Source of the DNA: an uncultured Chitinophagaceae bacterium
GTDB lineage: Bacteria > Bacteroidota > Bacteroidia > Chitinophagales > Chitinophagaceae
Length of the DNA: 7,237 nucleotides
Assembly (NCBI GenBank): GCA_946885335.1
Contig: CAMPGG010000176.1
Coordinates: 1 to 7,237, forward strand
Direction: 5' to 3'
The translations under genes were made by a program, and so were the position numbers. Position 1 is the first letter of the stretch, and every line of letters starts with the position of its first letter. This document shows, piece by piece, positions 1-7,237 of this stretch. The notes beneath the pieces were generated by a model. That model searched no databases, had not been told where the DNA came from, and was given only the letters and a program-made list of their open reading frames with translations.

Positions 1-341
1 AAATCAATTTCCTGGCTTCGTTGAACGGCCCAGGCCTGCACATCTTCACTAACTTCTGAAATGCTTTTTTGCGGGAGCACAAATTTATAATACATCTCCT
101 CCCGTTTACTGGCCTTGGTTTGGTAAATGAACTTGTAAATGAGTTTTATTTTCCGGTAAATAAAACGTTGAAGAGTAAACGTAATTAATAAAAAGCTTCC
201 CAAAAAAATGAGGATGAATGAAATGCCGGAGATCATCCAGTCTCTTTCCAGCGCATAAATGCCTAATGCTATCGGAATAGAAATCAATAATGAGGTAAAA
301 GCGGAAAGTTGCCGGGGTGTAAAATTTTTAGCCTGGAACAT
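1..341 (-). CDS. Sensor histidine kinase, N-terminal part (runs off the left edge)
   Basis: This is the 5' part of a gene read leftwards from ATG at 341-339; 113 codons are open to the window edge without a stop. The protein begins MFQAKNFTPRQLSAF. It has two hydrophobic segments, at about residues 12-31 and 40-58, separated by a loop of only about 8 residues (ERDWMISG). A basic juxtamembrane stretch (FIYRKIKLIYKFIY) follows, then a helical linker with VSEDVQAWAVQRSQEID. From memory, this layout is that of Bacteroidota PhoR-like kinases, in which the linker leads directly into the His-box (DHp) and ATPase domains; those would lie outside the window. The gene lies 56 bases downstream of a response regulator on the same strand, so it is very likely the cognate kinase. 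The short loop argues against a large periplasmic ligand-binding domain. No clear Shine-Dalgarno sequence precedes the ATG. The kinase call rests on context and linker resemblance, because no catalytic motif is visible. Confidence 0.8.
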   Translation of the reverse strand, partial: MFQAKNFTPRQLSAFTSLLISIPIALGIYALERDWMISGISFILIFLGSFLLITFTLQRFIYRKIKLIYKFIYQTKASKREEMYYKFVLPQKSISEVSEDVQAWAVQRSQEID

Positions 342-397
342 GCAATTTTAAAAATGAATATTAAAGGTAAGGTCACCAGGTGCTAATCCAATTAAGA

Positions 398-1075
398 TCA
401 TAACTCAAACTTATAACCAACACCTTTTACCGTGGTTATACAATCGATCCCCAGTTTTTGTCTCACTTTTCGAACGTGAACATCAATGGTGCGGTCACCA
501 ACAATCACATCGGCGCCCCAGATCTGGTTTAATATTTCGTTTCTCAAAAAAACCCTTCCCGGTTTGGATGCCAGCAGGTATAATAATTCGAATTCTTTTT
601 TGGCCAGGATGATCTCCTTGCCGTTATTAATTACCAGGAATTTTTGAGGATCGATTACCAGGCCATCAATTTCCAATATTTTATCGCCTGTTTCCGGTAA
701 ACGCCTGAATAATGCGTTTACGCGGCTGATAAAAACTTTGGGACTTACAGGTTTGCTGATATAATCGTCCGCACCTGTTTCCAAAACATTTACCTGGGTA
801 GTATCATCATTTAAGGCAGTTAAAAATAAAATCAGGGTCTGTTTAAACTGGGGCAGCTGTCTTAAACGCTCACAGACTTCCACACCTGTTTTTTTAGGCA
901 TCATGATGTCCAAAACAATAAGTTGGGGCTGGTGGAGCCTGGCTTTTTCAAGTGCATCATCTCCATCCTTTGCTGTAATGACCGAATACCCCGCTGAAAT
1001 AAGATTATATTTCAGGATCTCCAATATGTCCGGTTCATCATCAGCAATCAACACGGTGCGTGCCTTGGTTTCCAT
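398..1075 (-). CDS. OmpR/PhoB-family DNA-binding response regulator
   Basis: This 225-residue cytoplasmic transcription factor would be phosphorylated by the kinase encoded just downstream. The receiver domain spans about residues 5-122. It has the acidic pair D12/D13 (LIADDEPDI), the phospho-acceptor D56 (LIVLDIMMP), the switch T86 (LFLTALND) and K108 (YISKPVSP). A winged-helix DNA-binding domain follows (about 128-225), with the recognition-helix signature DRTIDVHVRKVRQKLG and the closing wing TVKGVGYKF. The length is normal for the family. A longer frame opens at a TTG at 1096, but that TTG sits inside a TAGGTTTG promoter element. The ATG at 1075, which gives METKARTVLIADDEPDI, is therefore preferred. 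The gene is divergent from the large secreted-protein gene. It resembles the PhoB branch, but regulon identity cannot be read from sequence, so no symbol is given. Confidence 0.96.
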   Translation of the reverse strand: METKARTVLIADDEPDILEILKYNLISAGYSVITAKDGDDALEKARLHQPQLIVLDIMMPKKTGVEVCERLRQLPQFKQTLILFLTALNDDTTQVNVLETGADDYISKPVSPKVFISRVNALFRRLPETGDKILEIDGLVIDPQKFLVINNGKEIILAKKEFELLYLLASKPGRVFLRNEILNQIWGADVIVGDRTIDVHVRKVRQKLGIDCITTVKGVGYKFEL

Positions 1076-1093
1076 GCAGCGTTCAAATTTTTG

Positions 1094-1101
1094 CAAACCT
1101 A
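1094..1101 (-). promoter_or_regulatory. Bacteroidota -7 promoter element for the response regulator
   Basis: Read on the minus strand, this is TAGGTTTG, a full match to the TAnnTTTG element used by the Bacteroidota primary sigma factor. It ends 18 bases before the ATG at 1075, which would give a leader of roughly a dozen bases. No TTG was found at the usual 17-23 base spacing upstream, so the -33 half is weak or absent. Confidence 0.5.
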
Positions 1102-1151
1102 CAATAATTGAAGAGACAGGAGGAAGGATTGTAACTCTATAACGAATACTT

Positions 1152-1193
1152 AATAATTAAATAATATACCTGACGCTTTATCGTTTAATTATT
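1152..1193. repeat. AT-rich inverted repeat in the divergent intergenic region
   Basis: AATAATTAAA (1152-1161) and TTTAATTATT (1184-1193) are perfect 10-base inverted copies separated by 22 bases, centred in the 228-bp gap between the response regulator and the secreted-protein gene. It could be an operator or a curved-DNA element. All bases in the arms are A or T, so chance occurrence is plausible. Confidence 0.3.
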
Positions 1194-1255
1194 TTTAACA
1201 TTTGAAAGCCAGCTTATTTGTTCAAAATTTGTTCTTTAAGAGAGAATTTAATTCA

Positions 1256-1289
1256 TTGTACCCCATTTAAACAGTGGGCATTAATTTTG
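1256..1289 (+). promoter_or_regulatory. Bacteroidota promoter for the secreted 729-residue protein
   Basis: A TTG at 1256-1258 and TAATTTTG at 1282-1289 are 23 bases apart, the upper end of the 17-23 base spacing known for Bacteroidota promoters (TTG...TAnnTTTG). The element ends 14 bases before ATG 1304, implying a very short leader. This rules against a GTG at 1274 as the start, since it would lie upstream of the predicted transcript start. Confidence 0.6.
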
Positions 1290-1303
1290 TTTCACTATTC
1301 ATT

Positions 1304-3493
1304 ATGAGATCATCAACTTTTTTCATATTTATTGTTTCCGCTTGTTTTCATTTAAATCTCAACGCCCAGGGAGATAGTAACCAGTACAAAAATTTAAAGC
1401 CGGAGTTCAGGCGCCAATTAAACCACGATTATATAGACCGGGAGCAAAAAGCTTTTGAAGCCTATAAACCTGCTGCTAATACAACGATTACAAAAGAAAC
1501 TGAATTTTATATTCATCAATCGGTTCAAAATAAGGCGGATGAAATTCAATTTAATATTGAAAAAGATACCATTCTTGATCATCGCCTGAAAGTGCAATAT
1601 TTACATGGCTTGTCCAACGTGCTGAGATTTATCAACAATAACCGGCGCAGTACCTCCTTCAAACCATCCTATATTCCTGCTACTATTTCTGCTTATGAAA
1701 AACTAATTGCATTAGACAGGGAAAATGAAAATATTTTACCTGCCATTACTGATATGCCATATGAAGTGGGTAATGCGGTGATGCGTTCAAACATTTTTGA
1801 CCAGAATAAAGGATATAATGAAAGCAGGTATGTATTGATAAAAAAATATGTAACGCTATACCCAGAAAAAACCCTGCAAACCTTATTGGAAAATCCCAAC
1901 CTACCTTTCCTGGACAGCCTGGTAAAAGTGGCGGCTTATCAAAATCCAAGACAGCTTTATGATTATGCCGCGGCCAATAATCGTTTAGGTTTTGCCATTC
2001 GCAAAATTGATGATCCACTGGTTAAAACCGTGAGTAAGATGGCCACCAGTGGAGGAAGCGGGCAATTGTATTTTCCTTTCCTGGATAATATCATGTCGGG
2101 TAAAATCAGTTTCAATGATGTGGACGAAGTAAAGAACGATGATGTAAAATATTACCAGTTACTGGTTAAAACGCATATTGATTATGTAAACCGGCAATTA
2201 AATGGTGAAGCGATCCAGGAATCGGCATCTATAATGGAAATGATGCAAAAAAAAGCAATCAGTTCTTTTGTAAATGTGATTAATGGATTACACAACTCAC
2301 CCGATGCAGTTCGTTTCCGGGTATTGCAACCACTGAGTGCCCAGGAACTGTATTATGTTGCGGTTTTAAGTGATGGCGTAATTTATACTTCCAGTTATAC
2401 CAATGGTGTATATCCATATATAATGAGCCGGATCGGGCAAAGAGGTGATTCTTTACTGATGTCTGTAAAATTTGATAAATACAGGAAGTTTATCAAAATA
2501 GCCGCGGGTTATAATACCCTGAGCCATTTTTTAGCTTCATTCAAACAACAGGATGATGCGGCTAAATTGATGCAGGCATTTGTTGGTGGCCTTGAAAAGT
2601 CGGATGGATTGGAAGATGGTGTAGATGTAGCCGATAGTTATGCAAGCATAGCAGAAAGCATCAAGCCTTTGGCGGATGAGATGATCAAAAACATCCAGAT
2701 CAATTACCAGCGTAATGTGGCCCAGAATAATAAAAGAGGAATTGTTATTTACAACCTGCTGGATAAATTATTTCAATCCGCAGATTCAACCAATAATATA
2801 AACCTTTCTACTGAGTTGGGTATTTCACCGGTTTACAATGTGAATTTTAATACATTGACCAATGAGGAAGATAAAGTGATTATGCAGGTATTCTTTTATG
2901 GTGATGAAGATGGTCAAAATATTTTCCAGGGTTTTTTAAGACAATTCAATAATAGTAACTGGAAAACAACACAAACGGATCAATGGGTTTATATACAGTC
3001 AGTAAAAGGTAAACCTGTAATGATCTATGCTAACAAACCTTTGCCGGAAGAAACGGGGGAAGATGAAAAAGCCCAAAGGGCATTGGAAGCTTACCTGGCA
3101 AAAAATAATCTGGCACCAACCGTTGTGATCCATCGCGGACATAGTTATTATGCTAATTACACCATCAACCAAATATTACCTTCTGCCAAAATTGTATTTA
3201 TGGGTTCTTGTGGTGGTTATCATTTAATTCATGATATTTTACAAAATGCTCCGGAAGCGCATATCATCGCTTCCAAGCAAATTGGTAAAACAAGGATCAA
3301 TCAACCATTCTTTAATTTGCTGATGGAAAAACTTCGCAACGGTCAAAATATTGATTGGATACCATTCTGGAAAGAATTAGATAATACTGTTACAGTGGAA
3401 GGTTTGGAAGATTATATTCCGCCATATAAAAATTTGGGTGCAATATTTATCAAGGCATATAAAACCGCCATGGATACAGAGCAAATTCTGTAA
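1304..3493 (+). CDS. Secreted protein of unknown function with a C-terminal clan-CD-like (separase/caspase/CHAT-like) His-Cys domain
   Basis: I do not recognise a named family. The ATG at 1304 gives 729 residues starting with a signal peptide (MRSSTFFIFIVSACFHLNLNA), with probable cleavage after A21 so that Q22 becomes the first mature residue; this fits the Bacteroidota habit of signal peptidase I cleaving before Gln. There is no lipobox or further membrane segment, so a periplasmic or exported protein is expected. Residues about 30-500 are mostly helical without an obvious repeat unit. From about V525 an alpha/beta pattern begins: a strand in VIMQVFFYGDEDG, a strand in KPVMIYANK, then VVIHRGHSYY with H610 and H613. 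After 23 residues comes a strand leading into a Cys, KIVFMGSCGGYH, with C636. Next are AHIIASKQIGKTRINQPFF and a helix. The Gly-His and hydrophobic-strand-Ser-Cys-Gly pattern matches the catalytic dyad layout of clan CD peptidases. Peptidase activity is an inference, and a non-peptidase role is possible. The gene stands alone with its own promoter. Confidence 0.8.
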   Translation: MRSSTFFIFIVSACFHLNLNAQGDSNQYKNLKPEFRRQLNHDYIDREQKAFEAYKPAANTTITKETEFYIHQSVQNKADEIQFNIEKDTILDHRLKVQYLHGLSNVLRFINNNRRSTSFKPSYIPATISAYEKLIALDRENENILPAITDMPYEVGNAVMRSNIFDQNKGYNESRYVLIKKYVTLYPEKTLQTLLENPNLPFLDSLVKVAAYQNPRQLYDYAAANNRLGFAIRKIDDPLVKTVSKMATSGGSGQLYFPFLDNIMSGKISFNDVDEVKNDDVKYYQLLVKTHIDYVNRQLNGEAIQESASIMEMMQKKAISSFVNVINGLHNSPDAVRFRVLQPLSAQELYYVAVLSDGVIYTSSYTNGVYPYIMSRIGQRGDSLLMSVKFDKYRKFIKIAAGYNTLSHFLASFKQQDDAAKLMQAFVGGLEKSDGLEDGVDVADSYASIAESIKPLADEMIKNIQINYQRNVAQNNKRGIVIYNLLDKLFQSADSTNNINLSTELGISPVYNVNFNTLTNEEDKVIMQVFFYGDEDGQNIFQGFLRQFNNSNWKTTQTDQWVYIQSVKGKPVMIYANKPLPEETGEDEKAQRALEAYLAKNNLAPTVVIHRGHSYYANYTINQILPSAKIVFMGSCGGYHLIHDILQNAPEAHIIASKQIGKTRINQPFFNLLMEKLRNGQNIDWIPFWKELDNTVTVEGLEDYIPPYKNLGAIFIKAYKTAMDTEQIL

Positions 3494-3518
3494 TACTATA
3501 ATAAAAATCAGTTCTGTT

Positions 3519-3526
3519 TACATTTG
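3519..3526 (+). promoter_or_regulatory. Bacteroidota -7 promoter element for the ABC exporter
   Basis: TACATTTG matches TAnnTTTG and ends 26 bases before the GTG start at 3553. It lies in the 59-base gap after the secreted-protein gene, so the exporter probably has its own promoter. No TTG lies 17-23 bases upstream, so the call rests on the -7 element alone. Confidence 0.45.
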
Positions 3527-3543
3527 TAGTTAACCTAAATGTA
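3519..3543. repeat. Inverted repeat overlapping the exporter promoter
   Basis: TACATTT (3519-3525) and AAATGTA (3537-3543) are perfect 7-base inverted copies around an 11-base centre that contains GTTAAC. The left arm is also most of the -7 element, so a protein bound here would block RNA polymerase. This could be an operator or chance; no factor can be named. Confidence 0.3.
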
Positions 3544-3552
3544 TTTTGAAGC

Positions 3553-5307
3553 GTGGCGGATCCTGCTATAAAAAAATCTTTTGACATAAACCTGCTGCGC
3601 AGGGTTTTTAAATTTGCCAACCCTTATAAAAAACAATTTTTTATTTCTGTAGGGCTCGCCATTATTTTGGCCGCATTCACACCCGTTCGACCTTACCTTA
3701 TTCAACAAACGGTAGATAAATATATTACCTACAAATTTTTGGATATGGTGATCTGGATTACCGTGATCCAGGTTGTTTTTCTTTTAATTGAAACTGCTTT
3801 GCGTTTTTATTTTTCTTTCATCACATCCTGGTTAGGACAGCATGTGGTTAAGGATATGCGGGTAACGGTTTACAATAAAATATTATCACTCAACCTCCGC
3901 CAATTTGATAAAACGGCTATCGGTACTTTAACCACCCGCACCATTGATGATAATGAAAGGATCAATGATGTTTTTTCGGATGGATTAATTTCCATCATTG
4001 CCGATTTTCTTTCCATTATTTGTGTATTGGGTGTAATGTTTTGGATGGATTGGCGGTTGACGCTTATATGCCTGGTTCCTTTTCCGATTATGCTGATAGC
4101 CACTTATTATTTTAAAGAAAGTGTGAACAGGTCCTTTCATCGGGTACGCAATGCCGTTAGTCATTTGAATGCTTTTGTACAGGAACACCTGACAGGAATG
4201 GCCATTATCCAGTCTTTTGCGGTGGAGGATAAAGAGTTTAATAAATTCAAAGAAATCAATAAGGAACATCGCAATGCCAATGTGAAAGCCATTTTTGCAT
4301 ATTCCGTTTTTTTCCCGGTGGTAGAAATTGTTCTGGCAACTTCCATTGGGTTGATCGTTTGGTGGGGCGCTGGTCAAAGAGTGAATGCAGGGGTGCTGGT
4401 GGCTTTTATTCAATTCCTTAACCTGATCTTCAGGCCGCTCCGGGTGATTGCGGATAAATTTAATGTTATCCAAATGGGAATGATCGCTGCCGAAAGGGTT
4501 TTTAAAGTGCTGGATAATGAAGATGTAACTAAAATCGATGGAACTTATGCTCCTGGAAAGGTGGAAGGCAAGGTTCAATTTAAAAATGTAACATTTGGTT
4601 ATTTACCAGAGCAGGAAGTTTTAAAGAATATCAATTTCACACTGAAAGCCGGCGATACCGTTGCCATTGTAGGCCATACCGGTTCCGGGAAAACTACCAT
4701 CATCAGTTTGTTGAACAGGTTATACCAGGTGAATAAAGGGGAGATACTAATTGACGATGTAAATATTAATGAATACCAGTTAGAAAAATTAAGAGGAAGC
4801 GTTGGCGTGGTACTGCAGGATGTGTTCTTGTTTTCCGGGTCAATAATGGATAATATTACCTTGCGCCACCCGGGAATTTCAAAAGAACAGGTTATCCAGG
4901 CGGCAAAATTAATTGGCATGCATGAATTCATCATGCAGTTACCGGGCGGTTATGATTATAATGTACGCGAAAGAGGGGCTACCTTATCGCTTGGGCAGCG
5001 GCAGCTTTTATCTTTCATCCGGGCACTTTTATATAATCCGGCTATTTTAATTTTGGATGAAGCCACATCATCCATAGATACGGAAAGTGAACAACTGATT
5101 CAACAAGCCATTGAAAAGCTGATTGCCAACAGGACTTCTATAATTATCGCTCATCGTTTATCTACTATTCGTAAAGCCAACCAGATTATCGTTTTAGACA
5201 AAGGCGAACTAAAAGAAGCGGGTACGCATGAAGAACTGTTGGTTCAAGGAGGATTTTACAGTAAATTGCATGAGATGCAGTTTATGAAAAAAACTGTTTC
5301 TGTTTAA
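3553..5307 (+). CDS. ABC exporter half-transporter, fused membrane and ATPase domains (MsbA/multidrug type)
   Basis: This 584-residue inner-membrane protein is expected to work as a homodimer exporting lipids, drugs or another hydrophobic substrate; the substrate cannot be read from sequence. The N-terminal half is a type-I exporter membrane domain with six hydrophobic segments at about 29-50, 64-88, 145-165, 168-187, 248-272 and 279-296. The ATPase domain has the A-loop Y350 (FGY), Walker A GHTGSGKTT (374-382), Q-loop Q422 (VVLQDVF), signature LSLGQRQ (478-484), Walker B ILILDEATSSID with catalytic E503, and switch H534 (IIIAHRLSTI). All catalytic positions are intact, and only the third signature residue departs from LSGGQ. 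The start is GTG: an in-frame TGA lies at 3547-3549, and the next in-frame ATG (codon 65) would remove the first membrane helix. No strong ribosome site is seen. The 64-residue gene follows after 7 bases, so the two are probably cotranscribed. Confidence 0.96.
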   Translation: MADPAIKKSFDINLLRRVFKFANPYKKQFFISVGLAIILAAFTPVRPYLIQQTVDKYITYKFLDMVIWITVIQVVFLLIETALRFYFSFITSWLGQHVVKDMRVTVYNKILSLNLRQFDKTAIGTLTTRTIDDNERINDVFSDGLISIIADFLSIICVLGVMFWMDWRLTLICLVPFPIMLIATYYFKESVNRSFHRVRNAVSHLNAFVQEHLTGMAIIQSFAVEDKEFNKFKEINKEHRNANVKAIFAYSVFFPVVEIVLATSIGLIVWWGAGQRVNAGVLVAFIQFLNLIFRPLRVIADKFNVIQMGMIAAERVFKVLDNEDVTKIDGTYAPGKVEGKVQFKNVTFGYLPEQEVLKNINFTLKAGDTVAIVGHTGSGKTTIISLLNRLYQVNKGEILIDDVNINEYQLEKLRGSVGVVLQDVFLFSGSIMDNITLRHPGISKEQVIQAAKLIGMHEFIMQLPGGYDYNVRERGATLSLGQRQLLSFIRALLYNPAILILDEATSSIDTESEQLIQQAIEKLIANRTSIIIAHRLSTIRKANQIIVLDKGELKEAGTHEELLVQGGFYSKLHEMQFMKKTVSV

Positions 5308-5314
5308 TATAAAA

Positions 5315-5509
5315 ATGAACTCGAAAAAGCAAATCGTTGAAGAAGCTGATGCAAATTATGAAAAGGCTGAAACAGATCTTTTAAAAGAAGCTTTAAAACG
5401 AACTCCTGCAGAACGTTATTATATGATGACCAAACTGATGAAGAGAGGAATCATGTTAAAACAGGCACGCATTACCCCATACAATACGATGAAGCCTCAA
5501 TCAAAATAA
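5315..5509 (+). CDS. Small helical hypothetical protein, likely partner of a nucleotidyltransferase
   Basis: This 64-residue charged protein has no signal peptide or membrane segment. It is rich in Lys and Glu and predicted helical over about residues 3-48, with a central TPAERYYMMTKLMKRG motif followed by KQARITPYN. From memory, Bacteroidota genomes hold small proteins with a similar 'TPEERxxMxxxLxR...LKxAKI' pattern immediately upstream of a small nucleotidyltransferase gene, an arrangement reminiscent of toxin-antitoxin pairs. Here the next frame starts one base after the stop and encodes only 21 residues that resemble the start of such an enzyme. This gene may therefore be an orphaned partner. 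It begins 7 bases after the exporter stop and is presumably transcribed with it. The reading frame is well supported by position and composition; the functional assignment is tentative. Confidence 0.75.
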   Translation: MNSKKQIVEEADANYEKAETDLLKEALKRTPAERYYMMTKLMKRGIMLKQARITPYNTMKPQSK

Positions 5510-5510
5510 C

Positions 5511-5576
5511 ATGGATGTATTTGATGAGGAATTACTGAAATTCTGGAAAAAATTAAGCAAGCAAAATCCCGGCTAA
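5511..5576 (+). pseudogene. Truncated N-terminus of a nucleotidyltransferase (21 codons)
   Basis: The frame starts with ATG one base after the stop of the 64-residue gene and ends at TAA 5574-5576. It reads MDVFDEELLKFW followed by KKLSKQNPG. The opening resembles the start of a Bacteroidota nucleotidyltransferase group in which 'FDxExLxFWxxL' leads into a strand and the GG/DxD catalytic motifs; this is recalled, not searched. Here none of the catalytic domain follows, and the DNA passes straight into the atpB promoter. The simplest reading is a deletion that removed the rest of the gene. A genuine 21-residue peptide, or coincidence, remains possible. Confidence 0.5.
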
Positions 5577-5589
5577 TTGTTATATAATG

Positions 5590-5622
5590 TTGTGGTTTTT
5601 TACCTTTCCCTCCTTATCTTTG
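5590..5622 (+). promoter_or_regulatory. Bacteroidota promoter of the atp operon
   Basis: TTG (5590-5592) and TATCTTTG (5615-5622) are 22 bases apart, matching TTG-N17-23-TAnnTTTG well, and the element is followed by CGCC. It ends 20 bases before the ATG of atpB. This is the most convincing promoter in the window and is consistent with strong, housekeeping expression of ATP synthase. Confidence 0.75.
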
Positions 5623-5632
5623 CGCCAAATTT

Positions 5633-5637
5633 GAGGA
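5633..5637 (+). promoter_or_regulatory. Ribosome binding site of atpB
   Basis: GAGGA stands 5 bases before ATG 5643. It is the clearest Shine-Dalgarno-like sequence before any start in the window; most Bacteroidota starts lack one. It supports the ATG at 5643 over the upstream in-frame TTG at 5577. Confidence 0.5.
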
Positions 5638-5642
5638 ACGGT

Positions 5643-6779
5643 ATGACTTCAGCACGAGTAAAATGCTTATTGGTATTGGTTTTCAGCTTATTTACCTGGT
5701 CGGTTTTCAATCCCGTTATTTCGCAAGAAAGTGATCATACGGACACCATTCCCGGAACAACCGCCGATTTTGAAGTTGAGCATGCCGATGCAAAATTTGA
5801 TCCTGCTAAAACGATCATGGATCACATCCAGGATGGACATGAATTTCACTTTTTTACAGCGGGCGATTTTCACGCCACTATTCCATTACCTGTCATTTTA
5901 TATTCTCCCCAAAGAGGTCTTGATGTTTTCATGTCTTCAAAATTTCATCATGGCGAAGATGCTTATAAAGGTTATCGCCAGCAGGGCAACAAGATCATTC
6001 CTGTTTTAGAAGATGGACATACATTAGATAATACAGTGCAGGTATATGATTTTTCATTAACACGTAATGTGGTACAGATGATACTCGCAGTTGTGTTATT
6101 GGTATGGTTATTAACCAGCATTGCCAAAAAATATAAAGAAGGGCAGGGAACTAAAACGGCACCGAAAGGAATTCAAAATGCAGTTGAACCGTTGATCACC
6201 TTTGTTCGGGATGAAGTGGCCAAACCAAACCTGGGAAGAAATTACAAGAAATACCTGCCATATTTATTAACGATATTCTTTTTTATCATCATCAACAGTT
6301 TTATGGGGCTGTTGCCGGGGTCGGCAAACGTAACGGGAAACATTGCGTTTACTTTAGTGCTGGGGGTTATTTCTTTTATTGTTACATTATTAAGTTCGAA
6401 CAAGCATTTTTGGGCACATATTTTCTGGCCCCCGGTCCCACATGCCATTAAAGTTATTTTGATCCCGGTGGAGATCCTGGGCGTATTTACAAAGCCTTTT
6501 GCATTGATTGTGCGTCTGTTTGCAAACATGGTTGCGGGTCACATCATTATTTTAAGTTTTATTTCATTGATCTTCATATTTGGTACAATGAATAGTATAG
6601 CAGGCTGGGGTTTTTCTCCATTCTCTATTTTATTTACGGTATTCATTTACCTGATAGAGATCCTGATTGTATTTATACAGGCATTTATTTTCACCAACCT
6701 GACAGCTATTTTTATCGGACAGGCTTTTGAAGGTGGACATGATGATGTGGATCATCACCAGGAGCCGGTAGTAATTTAG
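5643..6779 (+). CDS. atpB: F-type ATP synthase subunit a
   Basis: Subunit a forms the two proton half-channels next to the c-ring in the inner membrane. The product is 378 residues, far longer than the roughly 271 of E. coli. The extra length is N-terminal: a signal peptide (cleavage expected after S27, leaving Q28 first) and a His- and acid-rich segment up to about residue 160. The core has several membrane helices, including FFFIIINSFMGLLPG and the key helix LIVRLFANMVAGH with the essential Arg at R291. H300 occupies the position of E. coli E219, and E339 (IEILIVFIQAFIF) that of E. coli H245, a natural swap also known from mitochondrial subunit a. The tail is GGHDDVDHHQEPVVI. A frame open from TTG 5577 overlaps the promoter, so ATG 5643 is the start. 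It opens the operon, and atpE follows after 35 bases. Confidence 0.97.
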   Translation: MTSARVKCLLVLVFSLFTWSVFNPVISQESDHTDTIPGTTADFEVEHADAKFDPAKTIMDHIQDGHEFHFFTAGDFHATIPLPVILYSPQRGLDVFMSSKFHHGEDAYKGYRQQGNKIIPVLEDGHTLDNTVQVYDFSLTRNVVQMILAVVLLVWLLTSIAKKYKEGQGTKTAPKGIQNAVEPLITFVRDEVAKPNLGRNYKKYLPYLLTIFFFIIINSFMGLLPGSANVTGNIAFTLVLGVISFIVTLLSSNKHFWAHIFWPPVPHAIKVILIPVEILGVFTKPFALIVRLFANMVAGHIIILSFISLIFIFGTMNSIAGWGFSPFSILFTVFIYLIEILIVFIQAFIFTNLTAIFIGQAFEGGHDDVDHHQEPVVI

Positions 6780-7078
<299 letters not shown>

Positions 7079-7095
7079 TACGCGGCACGTAAAAA

Positions 7096-7136
7096 AATTA
7101 CTGCATTCAACGCACAGGGCCGCGGGTGCAGTAATT
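7096..7136 (+). promoter_or_regulatory. Stem-loop after atpE
   Basis: AATTACTGCA (7096-7105) and TGCAGTAATT (7127-7136) form a perfect 10-bp stem with a 21-base GC-rich loop that includes CCGCGG. It starts 17 bases after the atpE stop. No T-run follows the right arm (ACTTTCTAG), so it is not a classical intrinsic terminator. It could stabilise the upstream mRNA, limit read-through, or help give the high c-subunit dosage. Confidence 0.6.
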
Positions 7137-7148
7137 ACTTTCTAGTTA

Positions 7149-7177
7149 AATAGTTGATTTTGTTGAATAGTTGATTT
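7149..7177 (+). repeat. 12-base direct repeat in the atpE downstream region
   Basis: AATAGTTGATTT occurs at 7149-7160 and again at 7166-7177, a 17-base period, with a degenerate TAGTTAAA just before (7143-7150). Similar GTTGAA/AGTTGATT low-complexity runs are, from memory, frequent in Bacteroidota intergenic DNA. The rest of the region to 7237 is G/A/T-rich (GGGATTGGGAATTTGGAATT type), with no coding signal seen. Confidence 0.55.
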
Positions 7178-7237
7178 AAAGAAATTAGGGATTGGGAATT
7201 TGGAATTAGTGGTGATGATCCAAATTATAAGAATTTT

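Follow-up and report, generated by a model that had tools for sequence, protein, structure and literature searches.

A putative exported cysteine peptidase with a caspase/separase-like domain, encoded beside a PhoB-type two-component system in Chitinophagaceae

We analysed a stretch of 7,237 nucleotides (the window) from an uncultured Chitinophagaceae bacterium (assembly GCA_946885335.1, contig CAMPGG010000176.1, positions 1 to 7,237 of the forward strand), and in particular one gene at 1304..3493 of the plus strand, recognised by its open reading frame (ORF) and its homologues. This gene, which starts at the ATG at 1304 and encodes a protein of 729 amino acids (P0001), belongs to a family that we call FAM. 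We favour, with a probability of about 0.6, the reading that FAM is an exported cysteine peptidase or peptidase-like enzyme, with a His613-Cys636 pair in a caspase/separase-like C-terminal domain (C-domain) preceded by a helical region, and that its expression or function is tied to a core two-component system of the PhoB type. The predicted architecture, the conserved residues with their predicted positions, and the gene association were established here.

The C-domain is a predicted alpha/beta domain (residues ~509-729, 2828..3490, plus strand, from AlphaFold2 (AF2) and VIA-align). It contains the motif H610-R-G-H613-S-Y615 (3131..3148; codon of H610 at 3131-3133, codon of the putative catalytic His613 at 3140-3142) and, 23 residues after H613, the putative nucleophile Cys636 (3209-3211) in G634-S-C636-G-G638 (3203..3217); the numbering and spacing given for these residues by the initial annotation are exact in the ORF of 729 amino acids. 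That annotation had asked whether H613 and C636 vary freely among homologues. They hardly vary: in a set of 113 C-domains (86 Chitinophagaceae-type and 27 order-level, related sequences whose counts are not independent events), C636 is present in all 113 and H613 in 111. R611, G612, S614, N666, W685 and W689 are also invariant, while N577 (112 of 113), D534, D536 and Q659 (111 each) and K658 (110) are nearly so. D534 and D536 belong to the loop G533-D534-E-D536-G537 which follows the first core strand (2900..2914), and K658-Q659 follows the last one (3275..3280). As a separate observation, this GD(E/K)DG loop (residues 533-537) resembles a calcium-binding loop; EF-hand families of Pfam match at most 7 of the 86 C-domains (best E 0.0027), which is weak and was judged to be chance.

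A first count, on 91 rows including the protein of the window, gave both residues in 90 of the 90 rows reaching the site; ten more members, several of them distant, retain them too, and both are found in 100/100 Chitinophagaceae-type C-domains. The order-level relatives (16 stretches from 15 genomes, with 28 family ORFs, one of which is cut before the C-domain, hence 27 C-domains) have C636 in 27/27 and H613 in 25/27; two long paralogues are without this His. Between the most distant members and their closest relatives in Chitinophagaceae, identity over the best BLASTP pieces is 28-38%. Within the 100 sequences the codon of H613 is CAT in 65 and CAC in 35, and that of C636 is TGC in 62 and TGT in 38. 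As the two residues are kept across distant members while their codons vary, we concluded that the His-Cys pattern is more than chance. C636 is the sole conserved cysteine, the next best column reaching 66/99. H610 is less likely to be the catalytic histidine (His in 73/90, Asn in 17/90), and H653 was rejected for this role, being lost in four distant members (L103, L104, L105, L108). A serine hydrolase was rejected as well, since GxSxG occurs in 0/100 C-domains.

We then turn to the fold. The AF2 model of residues 500-729, built with 86 aligned C-domains, has a predicted local distance difference test score (pLDDT) of 93.5 and a predicted template modelling score (pTM) of 0.90. Its strands (525-531, 553-557, 561-566, 572-577, 607-611, 630-633 and 653-657) alternate with helices, as had been proposed for residues ~525-690 from the sequence, and H613 comes after strand 607-611 and C636 after the next one, 630-633, which also agrees with the earlier proposal. 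The caspase-haemoglobinase fold of clan CD peptidases has a core sheet of order 2-1-3-4. According to a review of this clan (PMC4357240), the catalytic His and Cys end consecutive core strands at their C-terminal side, and a Gly is conserved adjacent to the catalytic His, for instance His144/Gly145 in caspase-7. In the VIA-align list for the C-domain, the C11 structures 6nag and 6mzo come first. The best stretch found by hhalign with a first profile of the family ends on the presumed catalytic Cys of CHAT, C14 and C11; with the wider profile of 113 domains this is the case for CHAT and C14 only. The clan CD reading of the initial annotation is supported in part, as to the conserved His-then-Cys pair and its predicted positions at strand ends, while the searches gave no C11, CHAT, C25 or C14 profile match and no separase sequence match.

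Several results weigh against the peptidase reading. Neither Pfam (to E<=1) nor NCBIfam gives a family match for the protein. Foldseek found no match in the PDB at E<=0.001, with the whole model or with the C-domain, and small GTPases are at the top of its ranking; in VIA-align, Rag/Arf GTPases equal the C11 peptidases for the C-domain (Z 8.0) and, for the whole model, GTPases (9.0) stand above Csx29 and C11 (6nag, 7.7). The hhalign probabilities against CHAT (1.4-1.5%) and against C11, C14 and C25 (each <1%) are below 2%, not above the GTPase control (1.8, 3.5%). The targets were 20 CHAT, 10 C11, 20 C25 and 20 C14 sequences (one C14 row, a fragment of 32 residues, was retained), and the power of this comparison is limited even among true members of the clan: C14-CHAT reaches 88% and C11-C14 59%, C11-CHAT 6%, C25-CHAT 4% and C25-C11 <1%. 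The residue after His613 is Ser in 113/113 C-domains, where the clan review reports an adjacent Gly (PMC4357240); a Gly, Gly612, directly precedes H613 in 113/113. Two residues before Cys636 there is a Gly, as against Asp177 in PmC11 and Gln184 in caspase-7. Finally, G-S-C-G-G is compatible with the Cys nucleophile elbow of other folds.

The family searches were negative as well. Peptidase C11 (PF03415), CHAT (PF12770), Peptidase C25 (PF01364) and Peptidase C14 (PF00656) do not match the protein in Pfam and are absent from the 25 of 26 families shown for the 86 C-domains (scan run to E<=10); separase (C50) is not found at E<=10 in PDB sequence searches made with the protein, with its alignment or with the C-domain alignment. 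Altogether Pfam, NCBIfam, PADLOC and PDB sequence searches, with single proteins and with alignments, gave nothing convincing. DUF5949 (8/86 C-domains, best E 0.0014), a Zn-dependent oxidoreductase model (17/86, best E 0.00021) and PADLOC 'chat' (1/86, E 0.015) were discarded as weak matches, judged to be chance.

The N-terminus looks like that of an exported protein. Residues 1-21 (1304..1366, plus strand), followed by Q22, resemble a signal peptide: a simple script, which is not a signal-peptide predictor, found a hydrophobic 8-mer near the start in 96 of the 97 rows having an N-terminus, [AGS]Q at the putative cleavage point in 92/97 and a lipobox-like motif in 1/97. From this we infer that FAM is exported and periplasmic. 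The AF2 model of the full-length protein (mean pLDDT 86.3, pTM 0.72) shows helices at residues ~26-505 (1379..2818, plus strand), in keeping with the helical region of about 500 residues described earlier in front of the C-domain. This region carries conserved patches, Y361-T-S-S364, H330 and LEDGVDVADSYAS. The patches at residues 330, 361-364 and 436-448 (H330, YTSS and EDGVDVADSYAS) are conserved about as strongly as the active site, and perhaps they make contact with the C-domain. By analogy with separase and Csx29, the probable role of the helical region is to hold the substrate or offer it to the active site, or else to keep the enzyme inactive.

What else could the C-domain be? One candidate is a cysteine hydrolase or acyl-transferase with a different alpha/beta fold, in which C636 would occupy a G-x-C-x-G elbow and whose substrate would be not a protein but a small molecule, a lipid or a cell-wall peptide. 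Such an elbow carries the nucleophile in class I glutamine amidotransferases, DJ-1/PfpI and dienelactone hydrolases. GxCxG/A is present in 100/100 C-domains, sequence and profile methods fail to reach clan CD, and further invariant polar residues lie around the site (R611, S614 and N666, with K658 in 110/113), all of which would suit this explanation. However, His precedes Cys and lies on the neighbouring strand, which is the order of clan CD; H653 is the sole conserved His downstream of the Cys, and the four distant members named above have lost it. Moreover, none of these elbow families is among the 25 of 26 Pfam families shown for the 86 C-domains (E<=10), nor do they occur in the VIA-align output shown (50 rows), although an absence there excludes nothing according to the tool itself. 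We hold this explanation to be doubtful. More unlikely still is an enzymatically inactive caspase-like scaffold, such as a sensor or adaptor that serves the histidine kinase in the periplasm. In its favour, two of 13 long paralogues (L230, L240) have lost His613 while the gene is retained, the helical region is also strongly conserved, and there is the association with a two-component system, but a pure scaffold would not need H613 and C636, which are kept in 100/100 Chitinophagaceae-type C-domains and in 14/14 short forms.

The small-GTPase-like domain suggested by the top Foldseek matches, and by VIA-align Z scores equal to or higher than those of the peptidases, was rejected on its motifs and is very improbable. 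The first strand is not followed by a P-loop, 25/100 C-domains have the Walker-A pattern and 4/100 have [NT]KxD, and the protein has a signal-peptide-like start. The window does have a Walker-A look-alike, ASKQIGKT (residues 656-663, 3269-3292), but it comes after the last core strand, its residues vary (G661 in 78/90, K662 in 39/90, T663 in 36/90) and we ascribe it to chance.

The second part of the favoured reading, the tie of the putative peptidase to a two-component system, is based on the gene neighbourhood. Divergent from FAM lies a response regulator of the PhoB/OmpR type (398..1075, minus strand; Pfam Response_reg and Trans_reg_C), then the partner sensor histidine kinase, which runs off the window so that its N-terminal portion alone is covered (3..341, minus strand). 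This portion clusters with full-length kinases of related loci; its orthologue at locus L001 scores on histidine-kinase models. Downstream are an MsbA-like ABC transporter (3553..5307, plus strand; best NCBIfam match MsbA_lipidA, 478 bits, under the cut-off of 602), an ORF of 64 amino acids without Pfam or NCBIfam match (5315-5509, plus strand) and the ATP synthase subunit a (5643-6779, plus strand), in which 144 residues precede the Pfam domain (145-358 of 378). In the 80 loci analysed, the divergent regulator is upstream in 63 of the 72 loci with room for it (at no more than 333 bp in 62 and at 814 bp in one), followed by the kinase; the transporter is downstream in 61/73 loci with room (54 within 234 bp), or 62 when L070, where the genes overlap, is counted; ATP synthase genes come further downstream in many. 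The regulator and the kinase also adjoin FAM where the transporter is missing, either without ATP synthase genes (L018, L035, L037, L050, L065, L206, L207, L208) or with them nearby (L032, L049, L062, L072). In sister lineages the arrangement is different: regulator, kinase, long paralogue and short paralogue are co-directional in L227, in L229 and, with a DUF547 gene between, in L230, and L234 has a co-directional regulator-kinase arrangement with a single family gene. That the pair stays without the transporter or ATP synthase genes, and in a different arrangement in the sister lineages, is stronger evidence for its association with FAM than the conserved neighbourhood of the 80 loci, for which shared descent would suffice as an explanation.

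The 18 distant genomes (14 order-level ones and 4 distant family members) were selected for carrying FAM. At the thresholds used, 17 have one kinase orthologue and 17 at least one regulator; G667 has neither, and G687 carries a second, weaker regulator match. The regulator is beside FAM (within ~3.5 kb and separated from it by no more than the kinase or one or two small genes) in 11 of the 17 genomes with an orthologue, and the kinase in 7; in G672, G718, G687 and G696 only the regulator of the pair has stayed there. Other facts argue against the tie. The pair is missing from L057 and L073; among 12 further stretches it is present in 8 and missing in L203, L204, L209 and L213 (L204 and L209 being second FAM copies in their genomes); and the regulator is on another contig in 6/17 distant genomes.

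The region between regulator and FAM holds a candidate regulator box. A comparison of 65 regulator-FAM intergenic regions gave a PhoB-type repeat with a consensus of about AGA(C/G)TTAATRAWAAMTTAAT. Its core is TTAAT-N6-TTAAT, with 36/59 close pairs at a spacing of 11, against 0.1 in shuffles; with at most one mismatch the repeat occurs in 47/65 regions, against 6% in shuffles. In the window it appears as the 11-bp direct repeat TTAAT-N6-ATAAT (1150..1165, plus strand), with one mismatch. Two results speak against control of FAM through this box. In most regions 56-57 bp separate it from the -7-like element of the regulator itself, whereas its distance to FAM varies, which means that it mainly argues for self-regulation of the regulator; and the strict pattern is upstream of FAM in only 4 of 12 genomes. 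A search of these 12 genomes gave matches in 7 genomes: four exact matches (G001, G002 and G003 just upstream of FAM, G009 elsewhere) and seven with one mismatch (one, in G006, upstream of FAM), while the reversed control pattern gave 4 matches. As matches elsewhere are few and near the control level, we claim no wider regulon.

FAM is a large family, present in almost every genome sampled from one bacterial family. Among 5.8 billion proteins searched, 7993 candidates were scored and 4384 of them are homologues at E<=0.001; the 120 listed carry no Pfam domain, and all names shown read 'hypothetical protein'. No publication on FAM is among those that the literature searches listed, and the sources consulted give it neither function nor name. 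The first alignment joined 29 of these 120 to the protein of the window. A genome scan confirmed at least 380 relatives, of which the best 80 loci, with 90 family ORFs, were analysed. Their labels are Chitinophagaceae, Chitinophagales, Sphingobacteriales, Bacteroidetes or genus names (Terrimonas and Niabella, for example), apart from one metagenome-assembled genome (MAG) with the label Sphingomonadales; the closest relative among them is a Chitinophagaceae MAG (L001, 86% identity), from which the window, too, would probably belong to this bacterial family. Chitinophagaceae are bacteria of soil and water. We took G001 as reference; it carries locus L007 and has the title Terrimonas ginsenosidimutans, a genus belonging to Chitinophagaceae. 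FAM is matched in 187/195 genomes drawn from its family, in 79/198 from its order and in 14/395 from its phylum, all 14 of which recur among the genomes drawn from the family; since no more than two candidates were scored for each genome at the phylum level, distant members may be missing there. The eight family genomes without a match have 1.0-3.2 Mb and may be incomplete. A search with the C-domain only gave 978 matches, and most of the 120 listed come from contigs no longer than a few kb and resemble cut-off genes; others, e.g. P0137, P0192 and P0199, are on longer contigs. Free-standing C-domains may thus exist, though we make no claim for them.

Paralogues are frequent. In 9/80 loci more than one family ORF stand side by side; in L019 (6484-8756) a second copy, split in two overlapping ORFs of 548 and 229 amino acids, lies beside an intact one, and the C-domain match P0145 has the length of one of these pieces. 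In the sister lineages (L225-L240), 12 of 16 stretches hold two family genes, a long form (931-1196 amino acids) and a short one (672-721, a range which includes one protein cut by a contig end), separated by anything from a 23 bp overlap to an 8 bp gap (first-start ORFs). The two long paralogues without His613 have HRGYS (L230) and HRGLS (L240), whereas the short C-domains keep H613 and C636 in 14/14. Each group needs one change in a tree built from 56 C-domains (13 long, 14 short and 29 out of 86 Chitinophagaceae-type ones), with supports of 100/99 and 96/89, and a moderate 84/85 for the short group. Hence the long-short split is old.

If FAM is the peptidase that we favour, the following scheme can be proposed. 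The kinase would sense a condition of the envelope; the response regulator, with the probable box in the shared intergenic region, would adjust the expression of FAM; the protein would be exported and Cys636, activated by His613, would cut one or a few envelope proteins. The inferred parts of this scheme are catalysis, its being proteolytic and not some other reaction of a thiol, the control by this two-component system and an envelope substrate. More tentatively, Chitinophagales may possess a dedicated envelope signalling module made of the core two-component system and a periplasmic separase-like protease, with a regulator-kinase-long-short operon and a pair of paralogues in the sister lineages, Chitinophagaceae having kept one type of protease. 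If so, a long paralogue, sometimes without the catalytic His, and a short active one would work as a pair in the sister lineages, and this would be bacterial proteolytic signalling by a caspase-type enzyme outside the cytoplasm, with a helical region setting substrate and activity. A lone conserved Cys and its His make the peptidase idea easily testable.

If FAM is caspase/separase-like, clan CD would gain a divergent branch in which the His motif is altered, and an enzyme of this type would be found beside a core signalling system. Separase has Gly-His-Gly as its His motif, where FAM has Gly-His-Ser. The AF2 model of FAM has the layout of separase (C50), with a helical N-terminal region and then the putative caspase-like domain. 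FAM is bacterial, exported-looking, smaller and without sequence match to separase. CHAT proteins such as Csx29 (TPR-CHAT) differ in that FAM has no Pfam CHAT match, and Csx29 acts with a CRISPR effector, joins a pseudo and an active domain in one chain and has a His-Cys spacing of 43. Gingipains (C25), like FAM in its favoured reading, are exported His-Cys peptidases of Bacteroidota, without profile similarity to it (hhalign <1%); C25 genes occur separately in the phylum, in 61/80 genomes. The literature consulted for comparison was PMC4357240, PMC4626109, PMC4850288, PMC10028731 and PMC4852461. Peptidases of the clostripain family C11 (PmC11, PMC4850288; iotapain, 6nag; 6mzo from Parabacteroides distasonis) share with FAM an origin in Bacteroidota. 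Iotapain is titled 'secreted', which recalls the exported-looking FAM, and in C11 the His and then the Cys end adjacent strands, as predicted here. The spacing between them is 46 in PmC11 (H133/C179, PMC4850288) and 23 in FAM, the residue two before the Cys is Asp in PmC11 and Gly in FAM, there is no profile similarity, and in FAM a long helical region precedes the peptidase-like domain.
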